Source of the DNA: Desulforamulus ruminis DSM 2154
GTDB taxonomy: Bacteria > Bacillota > Desulfotomaculia > Desulfotomaculales > Desulfotomaculaceae
Assembly: GCF_000215085.1 (NCBI RefSeq)
Contig: NC_015589.1
Span: 1,240,001 to 1,304,000 of the forward strand
DNA length: 64,000 bases
Direction: 5' to 3'
In this document: in pieces, positions 57,658 to 64,000 of the stretch
How the letters are laid out: every line of letters begins with the position of its first letter
How positions within the stretch are numbered: the first letter of the stretch is position 1
Notes under the pieces: model-generated
Told to the model about the DNA's origin: nothing
The model's database searches: none
Seen by the model: the letters and a program-made list of their open reading frames with translations, nothing else
Program-made: the position numbers and the translations under genes

Positions 57658-57686
57658 TTGACAACCAGGAAAGCCTTTGCTAGTAT
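57658..57686 (+). promoter_or_regulatory. Strong sigma-A promoter of the purine operon
   Basis: TTGACA (57658-57663) and TAGTAT (57681-57686) are 17 bases apart, with TGC directly before the -10 (extended -10). Transcription would start near 57693, just before the guanine aptamer. Confidence 0.85.
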
Positions 57687-57707
57687 GTGAGTGTACAATT
57701 TAAATGG

Positions 57708-57774
57708 TTCCGTATATGCCTGGGAATTGGCCCGGGCGTTTCTACCGGGCGACCGTAATTGCCCGACTACGGGA
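57708..57774 (+). promoter_or_regulatory. Purine riboswitch aptamer, guanine type
   Basis: The sequence has the purine aptamer architecture: P1 pairs CCGTA (57710-57714) with TACGG (57768-57772), P2 pairs GCCTGGG (57718-57724) with CCCGGGC (57731-57737), the J2/3 signature GTTTCTACC follows, and P3 pairs CGGGC (57746-57750) with GCCCG (57761-57765) around a loop containing CCGTAA. The specificity base in J3/1 is C at 57767 (ACTA), which in this family means guanine and not adenine. Confidence 0.92.
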
Positions 57775-57784
57775 GGGAAAGTGT

Positions 57785-57880
57785 ACCTAGGGTTCCACAG
57801 CCCCCAGGGGTTGGTTCGGTCCAAGCGGTACAGGCGTTTTTACGCTACACCGACAGGGATAAAAGCCCAGGCGGTAGGTT
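57785..57880 (+). promoter_or_regulatory. ykkC-class riboswitch, probably the PRPP subtype
   Basis: Directly after the guanine aptamer are the conserved ykkC elements in order: CCTAGGGTTCC (57786-57796), GGTCC (57818-57822), and ACACCGACAGGGATAAAAGC (57847 on). In the known tandem arrangement with a guanine aptamer before purine genes, the ykkC partner senses PRPP. Guanidine and ppGpp subtypes share these elements, so PRPP is inferred from context. The GGGATAAAAGCCC end overlaps the terminator below. Confidence 0.82.
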
Positions 57881-57921
57881 TCACTCGCTACAGGATGAAA
57901 CCTATCGTTCTGGGCTTTTTT
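57861..57921 (+). terminator. Terminator shared by the two riboswitches
   Basis: AAAAGCCCAG (57861-57870) pairs with CTGGGCTTTT (57910-57919), and inside it CGGTAGGTTTCA (57872-57883) pairs with TGAAACCTATCG (57896-57907); the T run ends at 57921. The 5' arm is also part of the ykkC aptamer (AAAAGCCC), so ligand binding there should prevent the terminator and turn the operon on. No other terminator lies between the aptamers. Confidence 0.88.
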
Positions 57922-58042
57922 GCGTTGTGTGGTTGTAAAACCCTGCCAATGCATGACACATTTTCAAGTGGCAATAATAACTAGGAATTGTGTTATGTGC
58001 TGCACTGGCCCAAAACTTCTAATCTTAAGGAGGCATCTACAG

Positions 58043-59419
58043 GTGCTGGAACAGTTTTTTAAGCTGAGGGAGAACAACACTACCGTAAGGACAGAGATCA
58101 TTGCCGGTCTTACAACTTTTATGACCATGGCCTACATACTCTTCCTTAACCCCAACATTTTATCGGCGACCGGCATGGACAAGAACGCGGTTTTCTTTGC
58201 CACAGCGGCAGCCGCCGGGCTGGTGACCATTGCTATGGGTTTGTTTGTGAACTTTCCCATTGCCCTTGCTCCCGGTATGGGACTGAACGCTTTTTTTGCC
58301 GCCATTGCCGTGCAGGGCGTGGGAATGCCCTGGGAAGTGGCTTTGGGCGCAGTATTTATTTCCGGTATTATTTTTCTTATTCTGACTGTAACTCAGGTTC
58401 GTCAACTGCTGGTTGTGGCCGTGCCCAATTCTCTGAAGCGGGCCATTACCGTGGGGATTGGCCTGTTTATCACCATTATCGGGCTGAAGCTTTCTGAAAT
58501 TACTATTATAAAGGTGGGACCGGTGCTTCCTCCTACACTGGAGGCATTGCAAGAATCTGGCGGCATCGCCACCCTGAAGAGCTTTGAATGGAACTCCTTT
58601 TTGGGTTCCTTCCAGAATCCCGGAGCTTTATTAGCCCTCATTGGCCTGGCCATTACGGCCATTTTGATGGCCAACCGGGTTAAAGGCTCTCTGTTGATTG
58701 GTATCCTGGCCTCTACCCTAATTGGCATTCCCATGGGGGTTACTGTGATACCCGAAAACTTTACCCCCTTTGCCCTGCCGGATTTCAGCAATTTATATGT
58801 AGGCAAGCTGGATATTGCCGGTGCTCTGGAAATGGGGATCTGGACCGTAGTCTTTACCTTTACTTTTGTGGAATTATTTGATACCTTTGGCACCTTGATG
58901 GGAACAGCCGACAAAGCCGGCCTGCTGGATAAAGAAGGCCGGTCGCCCAAGATCGGCAAGGCCATGCTGGTGGACGCCCTGGGGGTTTCCTTTGGGGCCT
59001 TTATGGGCACCAGCACGGTAACGGCCTATGTGGAAAGTACCGCCGGTATCGGCGAAGGGGGACGTACCGGTTTAACCGCCGTAACCACCGGGGTGTTATT
59101 TTTACTGGCTCTGGTTCTGGCGCCCCTGGCAACGCTGATTCCCAGCCCGGCTACCGCTCCGGCTTTAATCATTGTCGGCGTATTGATGGTTTCTGCGGTC
59201 CGGGAAATCGATTTTAACGACTTTACCGAAGGCTTTCCCGCCTTTATCACCTTTGCTTTAATGCCCTTTACCTACAGCATTGCCAACGGTATTGCCGCCG
59301 GTATTGTATTTTATACCGCATTAAAGGTTTTATCCGGCCGGGCCAAAGAGGTTCACTGGATGATGTACATCCTGTTCCTGCTGGTGGTTATTCGCTTTAT
59401 TTTCCTGGCTGGTGAATAG
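58043..59419 (+). CDS. NCS2-type purine permease (AzgA/PbuG type, hypoxanthine/guanine)
   Basis: A membrane transporter that imports purine bases with protons. The 458-residue product has about 12-14 membrane helices, starts with FKLRENNTTVRTEIIAGLTTF, and has the family motifs NPNIL, ALAPGMGLNAFF, and the later EGGRTGLTAVTTGVLF and ESTAGIGEGG. This is the AzgA/PbuG branch of NCS2. I chose GTG 58043, preceded by AAGGAGG (58027-58033); the frame extends upstream into the riboswitch terminator and is not used. It is the first gene after the tandem riboswitch. Confidence 0.93.
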   Translation: MLEQFFKLRENNTTVRTEIIAGLTTFMTMAYILFLNPNILSATGMDKNAVFFATAAAAGLVTIAMGLFVNFPIALAPGMGLNAFFAAIAVQGVGMPWEVALGAVFISGIIFLILTVTQVRQLLVVAVPNSLKRAITVGIGLFITIIGLKLSEITIIKVGPVLPPTLEALQESGGIATLKSFEWNSFLGSFQNPGALLALIGLAITAILMANRVKGSLLIGILASTLIGIPMGVTVIPENFTPFALPDFSNLYVGKLDIAGALEMGIWTVVFTFTFVELFDTFGTLMGTADKAGLLDKEGRSPKIGKAMLVDALGVSFGAFMGTSTVTAYVESTAGIGEGGRTGLTAVTTGVLFLLALVLAPLATLIPSPATAPALIIVGVLMVSAVREIDFNDFTEGFPAFITFALMPFTYSIANGIAAGIVFYTALKVLSGRAKEVHWMMYILFLLVVIRFIFLAGE

Positions 59420-59437: not shown

Positions 59438-59953
59438 ATGAAGCCTTTGGTTGGTATTGTATTGGGCAGCGATTCGGATCTGCCCTTGATGAAAGATGCG
59501 GTTAAAATGCTGGAAAAGCTCAATATTCCCTATGAGATCAGCATTTCTTCAGCCCACCGGGCCCCGGATAAAACGGCCGAGTATGCTAAAACGGCCGAAG
59601 GCCGGGGGCTTAAAGTGATTATTGCCGCTGCCGGACTGGCGGCTCACCTGCCGGGTGTTATTGCAGCTCATACCATTCTGCCTGTCATCGGGGTGCCGGT
59701 AAAATCCGGCGCCTTGGAAGGGGTGGACGCCCTTTACGCCATCGTACAAATGCCGCCGGGCATTCCGGTAGCTTCCGTGGCCATTAACGGGGCCAAAAAT
59801 GCAGCCATCCTGGCCGCCCAGATCATTGCCACCGGCAGTCCGGAGGTAGTGGAAAAATTACACGGCTTAAAAGCACAACTGGCCGGAGAAGTTGAAGCCA
59901 AGGACAGCCGAATAAAAGAACTGGGCGTGGAGAACTACCTGGCCGGTAAATAA
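59438..59953 (+). CDS. purE: N5-CAIR mutase or AIR carboxylase PurE
   Basis: PurE acts at the carboxylation step of purine synthesis. The 171-residue product has IVLGSDSDLPLMKDAV, ISSAHRAPDKTAEY, AAAGLAAHLPGVIA and GVDALYAIVQMPPGIP, which are all family motifs. PurK, needed with class I PurE, is not next to it; purB follows directly, so a PurK-independent step or a purK elsewhere must be considered. ATG 59438 has GGAGGGAGG before it. Confidence 0.96.
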   Translation: MKPLVGIVLGSDSDLPLMKDAVKMLEKLNIPYEISISSAHRAPDKTAEYAKTAEGRGLKVIIAAAGLAAHLPGVIAAHTILPVIGVPVKSGALEGVDALYAIVQMPPGIPVASVAINGAKNAAILAAQIIATGSPEVVEKLHGLKAQLAGEVEAKDSRIKELGVENYLAGK

Positions 59954-59983: not shown

Positions 59984-61276
59984 ATGATCGAACGTTATAC
60001 CCTGCCGGAGATGAAGCAAATTTGGTCCGATGAGAACAAGTTTCAAAAATGGCTGGACGTAGAGATTGCTGCCTGCGAAGCCATGGCCGAGCTGGGGCAG
60101 ATTCCCCGGCAGGCCCTGGAAAACATTAAGGCCGGGGCGGCCTTTACGGTGGAACGAATTTTAGAAATTGAAGAAGTGACCCGTCACGATGTCATCGCCT
60201 TTTTAACCTGTGTGGCCGAGCACGTTGGAGAAGATTCCAAGTATATTCATATGGGACTTACCTCCTCGGATGTGGTGGATACCGCCCAGTGTGTCCGCCT
60301 GAAAGAAGCCGGGGAACTGCTGTTGAGAAGGCTGGAGAAGCTGCGTCAGGTGCTGCTGGATAAAGCGGTGGAGCACCGGGAAACCCTGATGATCGGGCGT
60401 ACCCACGGCATTCATGCGGAACCCATGACCTTTGGCCTGAAGATGCTCCTGTGGGTGGCGGAAACAGAACGGAACATGGAGCGCCTGCAAAGCGCCGTTA
60501 AAACCGTCAGCGTGGGCGCCATCTCCGGAGCGGTGGGAACCTACGCCAATATTGATCCTAAAATTGAAGCTTATGTCTGCCGCAAACTGGGCCTGAAACC
60601 GGCCCGGGTATCTACTCAAATCCTCCAGCGGGACCGCCATGCGGAATACCTGTGTACCCTGGCTGTCGTCGCTTCCTCTCTGGATAAATTCGCCACAGAA
60701 ATTCGCAATTTGCAGCGTACAGATATTCTTGAAGCCGAGGAATATTTTAATAAAGGCCAAAAGGGTTCCTCCGCCATGCCCCATAAACGGAATCCCATCA
60801 CAGCGGAAAATGTAAGCGGGCTGGCCCGGGTGGTTCGTGCCAATGCCATGGTGGCTCTGGAAAATGTGCCTCTCTGGCATGAACGGGATATATCCCACTC
60901 CTCCGCGGAACGGGTGGTCTTCCCCGACAGCACCACCGCCCTGGATTTTATGATCTACCGCTTTACCGGCATCATGGAAAAATTGCTGGTTTACCCGGAG
61001 AATATGAAACGGAACCTGGAAAAAACCCTGGGACTGGTCTTTTCCCAGCGTGTATTGCTGGCTCTGGTGGATAAAGGATTGACCCGTGAGCGTGCCTATG
61101 AGCTGGTTCAGCGAAACGCCATGGAAGCCTGGGCTTCAGGGAAAAAGTTCAAGGATTTGCTGGATGCCGATCAGGACATCCGGTCCCACTTAAGTTCCGA
61201 GGAACTGGAAGGTTTGTTTGATTACGGCTACCATTTAAAATACATGGATGATATTTACGCGCGCTTTGGTCTGTAA
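59984..61276 (+). CDS. purB: Adenylosuccinate lyase PurB
   Basis: PurB acts twice, on SAICAR and on adenylosuccinate. The 430-residue product has the fumarase/aspartase fold with the signature [24 protein letters not shown] and [19 protein letters not shown] precedes the ATG. It lies between purE and purC in the same unit. Confidence 0.97.
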
Positions 61277-61293: not shown

Positions 61294-62001
61294 ATGAAAA
61301 AACTGGAAATGATTTATGAAGGAAAAGCGAAAAAAGTATACCGTACCGACAGCCCGGATTATTTCTGGGTGGAGTACAAAGACGACGCCACCGCCTTTAA
61401 CGGGCAGAAGAAAGGAACCATTGACAATAAGGGCGTCATTAACAACAAGGTTTCGGCGGTTTTCTTTAAATTACTGGAAAGCAAGGGCATTACCACCCAT
61501 TTCGTAGAATTAATTAACGAACGGGAAATGGTGGTAAAGGCCCTGGAAATTATCAAGGTTGAAGTGGTGGTGCGCAATATCGCCGCCGGTTCCCTGTCCA
61601 AACGGGTGGGGCTCCCTGAAGGAACCGTGCTGCCGAAAACCGTGCTGGAGTATTACTATAAGGACGATGAACTGGGCGATCCCCTGATTAACGATTTCCA
61701 CATTGCCGCCCTGGATCTGGCCACTCCGGAGCAAATGGAGTTTATTAAAAAGACCGCCTTTAAAGTAAACGATATTATGCGGGAATATCTGGCGCCGGTG
61801 AACATTGATCTGATCGACTTTAAACTGGAGTTCGGCCTGCACCAAGGCCAGGTGCTGCTGGGGGATGAAATTTCCCCGGATACCTGCCGTTTCTGGGACA
61901 AGACCACTGGAGAAAGACTGGATAAGGATCGTTTCCGCCGCGACCTTGGCGGAGTGGAGGGAGCCTACCAGGAAGTACTGCGCCGGCTGACCGGAGAATA
62001 G
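61294..62001 (+). CDS. purC: SAICAR synthetase PurC
   Basis: PurC joins CAIR with aspartate using ATP. The 235-residue product has the family start [40 protein letters not shown] and [22 protein letters not shown] precedes the ATG. After it comes a 266-base gap with an unusual repeat element before purS. Confidence 0.97.
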
Positions 62002-62267: not shown

Positions 62268-62516
62268 ATGTATCAAGCCAAGATTTACGTAACCCTTAGG
62301 AAAAGTGTGCTGGATCCCCAGGGAAGCGTGGTACGCAAGTCACTGTACGCTCTGGGCTGGAAAAACGTTCCTGAAGTTCGTATTGGCCGTTACATGGTTG
62401 TGGATCTGGAAGTAGCCGATCGCAGCGAGGCTGAAAATCAGGTAAAGGACATGTGCGATAAATTGCTGGTGAACCCGGTGATTGAGGATTATACTTTTGA
62501 ACTGGTGGAGGTGTAA
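62268..62516 (+). CDS. purS: FGAM synthase subunit PurS
   Basis: PurS is the small subunit that links PurQ and PurL. The 82-residue product has the family pattern YQAKIYVTLRKSVLDPQGSV, LYALGWKNVPEVRIGRYM and DMCDKLLVNPVIEDY. AAAAGGAGGG precedes the ATG. It is three bases before purQ. Confidence 0.95.
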   Translation: MYQAKIYVTLRKSVLDPQGSVVRKSLYALGWKNVPEVRIGRYMVVDLEVADRSEAENQVKDMCDKLLVNPVIEDYTFELVEV

Positions 62517-62519
62517 AGG

Positions 62520-63221
62520 GTGAAATTTGGGGTGGTGGTTTTCCCCGGCTCCAATTGTGACGCCGATTGCCTTCACGCTGTCAAAACCGTAACCGGACAG
62601 CCGGCGGAATATATTTGGCATAAGTCCGGCAGTGTGGAAGGTTTTGATTGCATTATCCTGCCCGGGGGTTTTTCCTACGGGGACTACTTAAGGTGCGGGG
62701 CGGTGGCCCGGTTTTCTCCGGTGATGACTCCGGTGATCGAGTTCGCGAAAAAAGGCGGCCTGGTGATCGGTATTTGTAATGGTTTCCAGGTGCTAACCGA
62801 GGCAGGACTGCTGCCCGGAGCTCTGCACAGAAATAAAGAGCTGCAGTTTTTGTGTCATGATGTTTTTCTGCGGGTGGAGAATGCCTCCCTTCCCTTTACC
62901 TGTACGGCCAGGGAAGGAGAGGTAATCAAAGTTCCCATCGCTCACGGTGAGGGAAATTATTTTGCTGATGCCGAGACCTTGCAGCAGTTGGAAGAAAATA
63001 AACAGGTGGTTTTCCGCTACTGCGATGCCCAGGGAGAGGTAACACCGGAGGTCAATCCCAACGGTTCCGCCAATCACATTGCCGGCATCTGCAATCAACA
63101 GGGCAATGTTCTGGGCATGATGCCTCACCCGGAACGCTGTGCCGAAAAGGATTTGGGGAATACCGACGGCCAGTTGATTTTTAAATCCCTGCTGGATTTC
63201 TGGCAAAGGAGGTGCGGCTAG
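62520..63221 (+). CDS. purQ: FGAM synthase glutaminase PurQ
   Basis: PurQ provides ammonia for FGAM synthesis. The 233-residue product is a class I glutamine amidotransferase: [26 protein letters not shown], the nucleophile Cys in [14 protein letters not shown] and His/Glu in [10 protein letters not shown]. The start is GTG 62520, with GGAGGTG upstream in purS. It is followed by purL without a gap. Confidence 0.97.
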
Positions 63222-64000
63222 ATGGACCCTAAAGTTTGGCGCGAAATGGGCCTCACCGAGGATGAATATGAAAAAATTAAACAAATACTGGGCCGGGAGC
63301 CCAACTATGTGGAAGTGGGTATTTTTGCGGTCATGTGGTCGGAGCACTGCAGTTATAAAACGTCCCGTCCGGCTTTAAAAACCCTGCCTACGGAAGGTAC
63401 GGCCATTTTACAGGGACCCGGCGAAAATGCCGGTGTTGTGGATATTGGCGATGGACAGGCGGTGGTTTTTAAAATTGAGAGCCATAACCACCCTTCGGCC
63501 ATTGAACCCTATCAAGGTGCCGCCACCGGCGTGGGAGGCATTTTGCGGGATATTTTCACCATGGGCGCCCGGCCGGTTGCCGTATTGGACAGTTTGCGCT
63601 TCGGCGAGCTGAACCATCCCCGGGTACGTTACCTGTTTGACGGCGTGGTATCCGGCATCAGCGGCTACGGCAACTGCATCGGCGTGCCCACGGTGGGCGG
63701 CGAGGTTTATTTTTCCGACAGTTATAAGGACAACTGCCTGGTCAATGTTATGTGTGTGGGTTTAATTGACCAGAAGGATATTAAAAGGGGCGTGGCTTCC
63801 GGTATCGGCAATCCGGTGATGGTAGTGGGCGCTAAAACCGGCCGGGACGGCATCCACGGGGCCACCTTTGCTTCCGAGGAATTATCCGCAGAAGCGGCGG
63901 AAAGACGCCCGGCGGTGCAGGTGGGAGATCCCTTTATGGAAAAGCTCTTGCTGGAGGCCTGCCTGGAGGTAATTAAAACCGGTTATGTGGTAGGCATCCA
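63222..64000 (+). CDS. purL: FGAM synthase large subunit PurL, N-terminal part
   Basis: The gene starts at ATG 63222, directly after the purQ stop, with AAAGGAGG 7-8 bases upstream, and runs past the window end. The visible 259 codons are the small-type PurL without fused Pur[33 protein letters not shown] (substrate loop), [20 protein letters not shown] and [17 protein letters not shown] and FGAR are the substrates. The rest is not in the window. Confidence 0.96.

Follow-up and report, generated by a model that had tools for sequence, protein, structure and literature searches.

The purine operon at the end of the window, as we call the whole 64,000-nucleotide stretch of Desulforamulus ruminis DSM 2154 analysed here, is very probably controlled by a tandem guanine/PRPP riboswitch that acts on purine import and purine synthesis through one terminator, in the manner of the published IMPLY gate. 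We observed both aptamers, in sequence and structure, the subtype markers of the second, the strands shared between helices, covariation in relatives, and the content of the operon. The features, all on the forward strand, are these, with their basis in brackets.

57658 to 57686, forward strand: putative sigma-A-type promoter, TTGACA-17-TAGTAT with TG before the -10 (consensus match only)
57690 to 57789, forward strand: guanine-type purine aptamer, span of Rfam Purine RF00167 (full-length covariance match)
57708 to 57774, forward strand: guanine P1, UUCCG 57708-57712 with CGGGA 57770-57774 (minimum-energy pairs and comparative pairing)
57773 to 57886, forward strand: P0 of the PRPP aptamer, GAG-G-GAAA 57773-57780 with UUUC-A-CUC 57879-57886 (pairing across 18 aligned loci)
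57776 to 57886, forward strand: ykkC-class aptamer, very probably of PRPP type, subtype 2b (markers C57826 and G57870; Guanidine-I covariance match)
57861 to 57921, forward strand: intrinsic terminator, hairpin 57861-57919 and U-tract 57916-57921 (-36.2 kcal/mol)
58027 to 58033, forward strand: Shine-Dalgarno AAGGAGG (sequence)
58043 to 59419, forward strand: AzgA-type NCS2 purine permease gene, GTG start at 58043 (PF00860; AZG1/AZG2 chains)
59438 to 59953, forward strand: purE (TIGR01162)
59984 to 61276, forward strand: purB (TIGR00928)
61294 to 62001, forward strand: purC (TIGR00081)
62268 to 62516, forward strand: purS (NF004630)
62520 to 63221, forward strand: purQ (NF002957)
63222 to 64000, forward strand: purL, running past the window end (named from sequence and gene order)

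The Rfam Purine covariance model matches 57690-57789 with 75.2 bits (gathering score 37), as a three-way purine aptamer should, and this match is both the window's only Rfam match at gathering level and the sole Purine match found in the genome (3.97 Mb, single contig). Purine aptamers of the adenine type carry U at the specificity position; here it is C57767, the C of GACUA, as in the guanine type. The first-pass annotation had read a sigma-A promoter followed by a guanine-class aptamer with C at 57767, and this reading stands, the promoter being the one site found in a 701-base stretch where shuffled sequences gave 0.5 (sd 0.7). The guanine aptamer lies immediately 5' of the second aptamer: its P1 ends at 57774 and the PRPP P1 starts at 57782 (six pairs) or 57783 (five pairs), leaving 7 or 8 bases between stems that PMC5912903 describes as typically 5 to 7 bases apart in tandems. 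The scan for terminators found no site between the guanine and ykkC aptamers; the single terminator lies at the end, as annotated, and the 3' strands of ykkC P3 (57866-57868) and P0 (57879-57882) fall within its 5' arm. One site was found where 1.1 were expected, a count not by itself above chance.

That a ykkC-class aptamer follows was also borne out. Rfam Guanidine-I matches 57776-57875 with E-values of 7.3e-11 (461-base stretch) and 1.5e-10 (genome), and the element aligns over its full length with 17 relatives. Because its 62.5 bits fall 0.5 below the cut-off of 63, the default Rfam scan is silent on it; no other ykkC-type Rfam family matched at E up to 10. R1, the covariance model built here, gave the window copy 131.4 bits, a score that favours this copy since it is among the 18 training sequences. 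The aptamer has a pyrimidine, C57826, where guanidine-I has A, and G57870 is paired with C57848, a pair that is C-G in 18 of 18 aligned loci. G57870 is the equivalent of Thermoanaerobacter mathranii position 96, as mapped through the Rfam consensus pairing and not through the crystal structure. The 5' and 3' tails form a P0 helix, derived from the aligned sequences themselves. According to PMC6031431, residue 49 is A in guanidine-I aptamers and a pyrimidine in the PRPP and ppGpp types, and G at position 96 marks PRPP aptamers, ppGpp aptamers having another base there. Among 140 pooled R1 matches (133 distinct sequences, selected by a model trained on the same group), the position 96 equivalent was G in 138 and unreadable in two degraded copies, L024 and L026; the residue 49 equivalent was C or T in 127, G in one (L187) and unread in 12. 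An apparent A at residue 49 in L176-L178 was rejected, the residue being U. By the published marker residues the second aptamer is thus very probably of PRPP type and would bind PRPP. The annotation had proposed this, adding that a guanidine-I or ppGpp score would speak against it: the nearest Rfam score is indeed Guanidine-I, under its cut-off, while C57826, G57870 and P0 fit the PRPP type.

We propose a relay of mutually exclusive helices as the likely mechanism. Under IMPLY logic the switch would be OFF only if guanine is bound and PRPP is absent. Bound guanine would lock P1, taking linker bases needed for P0; lacking P0, the PRPP aptamer would be weakened and the strand 57861-57886 released to build the terminator. 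PRPP, conversely, would stabilise P0 and P3, opening guanine P1 and holding the terminator 5' arm, so that transcription reads on. Here we infer ligand binding, the logic and the co-transcriptional order. Folding energies are -99.8 kcal/mol for the terminator state (free) and -81.3 kcal/mol for the forced PRPP state. At equilibrium the terminator state is thus preferred, and a switch working as published would have to be a kinetic one.

The pairing of P0 holds throughout the alignment. All 126 of 126 cells of its seven pairs are paired in the 18 aligned loci (window included), as against 92.8% in shuffles, and the covariation score is 0.215 versus 0.084, with 0 of 500 shuffles matching either the pairing or the score. 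Two pairs (7 cells) show changes on both sides, a number of pairs that 18 of 500 shuffles reach; the count of pair types is reached by 431 of 500. In a control slid by +2, both-side changes affect 2 pairs and 8 cells, and 61.1% of the cells pair. In the window guanine P1 and P0 have only bases 57773-57774 in common, the 7-base linker sharing just these two. For a wider comparison we parsed 90 tandem matches, which gave 39 distinct P1/linker/P0 combinations; the set leaves out nine unparsed tandem matches as well as L207, L217 and L224, which the script did not recognise. The P0-extension pairs are formed in 103 of 117 cells (5000 shuffles: mean 85.5, maximum 95) and the guanine P1 pairs in 150 of 156 (mean 125.0, maximum 140), while 41-67% of cells pair in slid controls; the shuffles preserve column make-up and not kinship. 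Every one of the 39 combinations has at least one linker base that could pair in either helix, and 26 have three or more. Where the linker has five bases, 23 of 27 combinations (57 of 62 matches when duplicates are counted) let bases 2-4 pair in each of the two helices, and 16 of 27 have a P1 5' strand identical to the P0 3' strand over three bases, against a shuffle mean of 9.7 (0 of 10000 reach this). Linker base 3 then takes part in U-A-U, A-U-A and C-G-C triples, among others.

The comparison indicates that the 5' strand of P0 can be supplied by the 3' strand of guanine P1. Because the P0 3' strand lies within the terminator, a chain would run from guanine P1 through P0 to the terminator. 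The annotation had argued that guanine must act by way of the folding of the second aptamer, which agrees with both the published model and the shared P1/P0 strand. In a fixed register, all three extension pairs occur in 26 of 48 tandem phylum loci. Of the readable singlet PRPP-like loci, 24 of 31 have them as well; the extension was therefore not made for the tandem, which is special only in sharing it with guanine P1. In some singlet PRPP-like loci (L148, L151-L153, L190 and L205, family f29, and L182) a plain hairpin replaces the guanine aptamer, for example CUCGU..CGGG..CCCG..ACGAG in L148, which occupies the same P0 strand. Upstream hairpins on the P0 strand reach p<=0.05 in 7 of 32 singlet loci, and the hairpin of f29 and L182 is perhaps a built-in competitor.

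The main link could instead be a leader helix, 57693-57701 with 57778-57786, that extends guanine P1 in the genus and hides the 5' tail and P1 strand of the PRPP aptamer, with P0 exchange playing no leading part. This helix belongs to the minimum-energy fold, and a five-base pairing of the kind is possible in several Desulforamulus permease loci. It is nevertheless unlikely to be the link, for it does no better than shuffled leaders: p is 0.19 in the window, 0 of 16 Desulforamulus loci reach p<=0.05 (mean z -0.60; 16 of 17 named loci scored, L033 having dropped out), and the counts are 0 of 9 in family f3 and 3 of 64 elsewhere. We keep it as a weak rival to the P1/P0 exchange.

Degraded tandems occur among the relatives. 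At L024 1578-1675 (genome G027) and at L026 1416-1525 on the minus strand (G045), a guanine aptamer is followed by a shrunken ykkC-like element that has lost the docking part of P1a and the usual P3 loop; the downstream genes encode the FAD subunit of a molybdopterin dehydrogenase and a PnrA-like transporter protein. Both loci retain complementarity for P1, P0 and the terminator (by eye; L026 was parsed likewise by script), consistent with their having reverted to a guanine OFF switch. In Desulforamulus aeronauticus a second tandem (L040 7380-7600) lies upstream of the permease tandem, before an adenine deaminase-like gene, with GATTA (U at the specificity position), a damaged P1 and a damaged PRPP core; at the homologous place in L039 (7480-7600) the guanine aptamer is lost, as is much of the remainder. 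This second tandem looks like a tandem riboswitch in decay.

Such degraded second aptamers (L024, L026, L040 7432-7556 and L039) are what would lead one to regard the PRPP half of the window copy, too, as a relic, with guanine alone regulating. We consider this very improbable, as neither marker residue is lost in the window copy and its R1 score is 131.4 bits, while L024 and L026 reach 30.4 and 41.5, a comparison in which only the window copy, being in the training set, was favoured.

The ligand of the second aptamer might be ppGpp (subtype 2a), in which case the gate would couple guanine to the stringent signal, and the consensus sequences of subtypes 2a and 2b are closely alike (PMC6031431). 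This has little chance of being correct: G57870 is the G of PRPP aptamers, G96A alone changed specificity about 40,000-fold in the same source, and the purine operon context and the guanine tandem suit 2b. Least probable of all is that the Rfam label be taken at its word and the aptamer sense guanidine, for although Guanidine-I (RF00442) has the same ykkC scaffold and is the sole ykkC-type family to match, and some PRPP-type RNAs before pur genes (among them L149, L170 and L193) pass its cut-off, the window element has C57826 and not A, has tails conserved as P0 and heads a purine operon, and the same genome contains another copy, L002, which scores 87.6 bits and does have A at the marker. L002 precedes a small multidrug-type exporter and is one of two further clear ykkC RNAs in this genome; the other, L004, precedes a NUDIX-type gene (both genes read by eye), and NUDIX genes are given as a context of ykkC subtype 2c in PMC7266159. 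For annotation there is a pitfall here, in that the name Guanidine-I falls on PRPP-type switches or, as in the window, the model narrowly misses them.

Behind the PRPP-type switch, the permease-led order with purE-B-C-S-Q-L that had been annotated holds, on the PF00860 match of the permease, the TIGR and NF family matches, and sequence and order for purL. The operon extends further than annotated, since frames beyond purL in the genome read as purF-M-N-H-D (from sequence and order, without family search). Searched against NCBIfam at E up to 0.001, the permease matched nothing; we name it an AzgA-type purine permease because of the PF00860 match and because AZG1 and AZG2, both adenine/guanine permeases, were the only solved structures to match it. 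The nearest named permease that the search found belongs to Desulforamulus putei (89%, in a search that may leave out the own species). In another locus, L228 (8464-14980), frames after purD resemble by eye a histidine operon, another PRPP user; no Rfam match was found at L228 at E up to 0.1.

Relatives were searched in 60 genomes (the own genome and 59 others) with the Purine model and then with R1. Purine matched 34 times in 15 genomes, and 30 matches were taken as loci, of which 26 have a full PRPP-like aptamer adjoining and two (L024 and L026) a degraded one, while L009 and L035 gave no R1 match by the guanine aptamer. The first gene of the 26 tandems is an AzgA-type permease in 12, a PnrA-like ABC transporter gene in 9, adenine deaminase in three and purE in one; one reaches a contig end. 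The PnrA-like calls rest on Pfam for L010 and on 71-89% identity to L010 for the other 8, and in five of these 9 loci the frame begins about 440-540 bases downstream. Among the adenine deaminase calls L019, cut short by the locus edge, is under the NCBIfam cut-off, and the others have 81% and 98% identity to it. L009, from a sister species (G006), has a guanine aptamer with an NCS2-like permease gene (by eye), and no PRPP-like aptamer was found beside it. At L182 2889-2989 a Purine aptamer lies inside the operon, by position between purE and purB.

The permease has close relatives, of roughly 75-80% identity, in Bacteroidetes loci among L041-L094, mostly MAGs. With no R1 match upstream of these loci, the Bacteroidetes permease was likely acquired by horizontal transfer without its switch. 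Over the whole permease-query set an R1 match lies just upstream in 29 of 80 loci, with a guanine aptamer by pattern in 26 of the 29, a set in which the permease query biases the frequency of permease-first loci.

In the phylum, R1 matched 230 of 398 genomes, a count that can include other ykkC types, as do two of the three matches in the own genome. From the matches listed, ranked by score, we hand-picked 80 loci, a sample that is not unbiased, R1 having been trained on the genus and its relatives. By Rfam, a Purine aptamer lies directly upstream in 48 of the 80 (this supersedes a pattern count of 93 of 140). A purine permease is first in 20 of these 48 (L223 assigned by hand from its pbuX match), with pur genes within 4.4 kb behind in 16 of the 20; among the 32 singlet loci it is first in five, one of which, L151, has only a 45-residue permease remnant. 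The difference (20 of 48 versus 5 of 32) gives a Fisher p of 0.015 that ignores kinship, and since the counts over 38 families are 11 for tandem with permease, 3 for singlet with permease, 17 for tandem with another gene and 14 for singlet with another gene, we dropped a link between permease-first order and tandem status. The permease-first arrangement is common in the picked sample, where 11 of 38 families have it with a tandem.

Guanine/PRPP tandems acting as a logic gate are known already, in agreement with the annotation. Their IMPLY logic and the mutual exclusion of P1 and P0 have been published too, and what is added here is comparative support for the mechanism and a wider gene set. 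PMC5912903 (Sherlock 2018) describes IMPLY-like behaviour for the Bacillus megaterium codA tandem, in which, as here, a guanine aptamer lies directly 5' of a PRPP-type aptamer with a shared terminator before purine genes; unlike that tandem, the window's has a purine permease as its first gene. The same paper gives the gene set of tandems as 'de novo genes up to IMP', also naming codA, and its main text contains no word beginning 'permease'. Our literature search, with most subscription papers outside its coverage, found none joining a PRPP riboswitch with a permease or ykkC/PRPP with Desulfotomaculum. With 127 tandem examples on record in 2018 and 192 in 2022, the window locus may already be among them. 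PMC5912903 leaves the structural link between the aptamers open, and in a 2022 review (PMC9481103) the structural changes that link them are not yet established. PMC6031431 (Knappenberger 2018) proposed that P0 and guanine P1 are mutually exclusive, from a folding prediction for T. mathranii, whose PRPP aptamer (PDB 6CK5) has the same P0 helix, G96 and pyrimidine 49 in a different organism. To a link thus described as not established, or predicted from one sequence, the present analysis adds the multi-locus comparison of strand sharing.

A broader proposal, tentative and in our judgement slightly short of an even case, is that Desulfotomaculum-like Firmicutes use the tandem generally as a switch for purine acquisition, covering import, nucleoside uptake, adenine deamination and synthesis, in which one linker strand is common to P1 and P0 and, through the P0 3' strand, reaches the terminator, and in which loci with a decayed PRPP half keep the relay and revert to guanine OFF. 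That salvage of imported bases and de novo synthesis both consume PRPP would plausibly explain why import and synthesis stand under one switch. A single strand able to serve both helices would permit direct, testable base swaps. With genes for importers, nucleoside transport and adenine deaminase behind it, the gate would cover purine acquisition and not purine synthesis alone.
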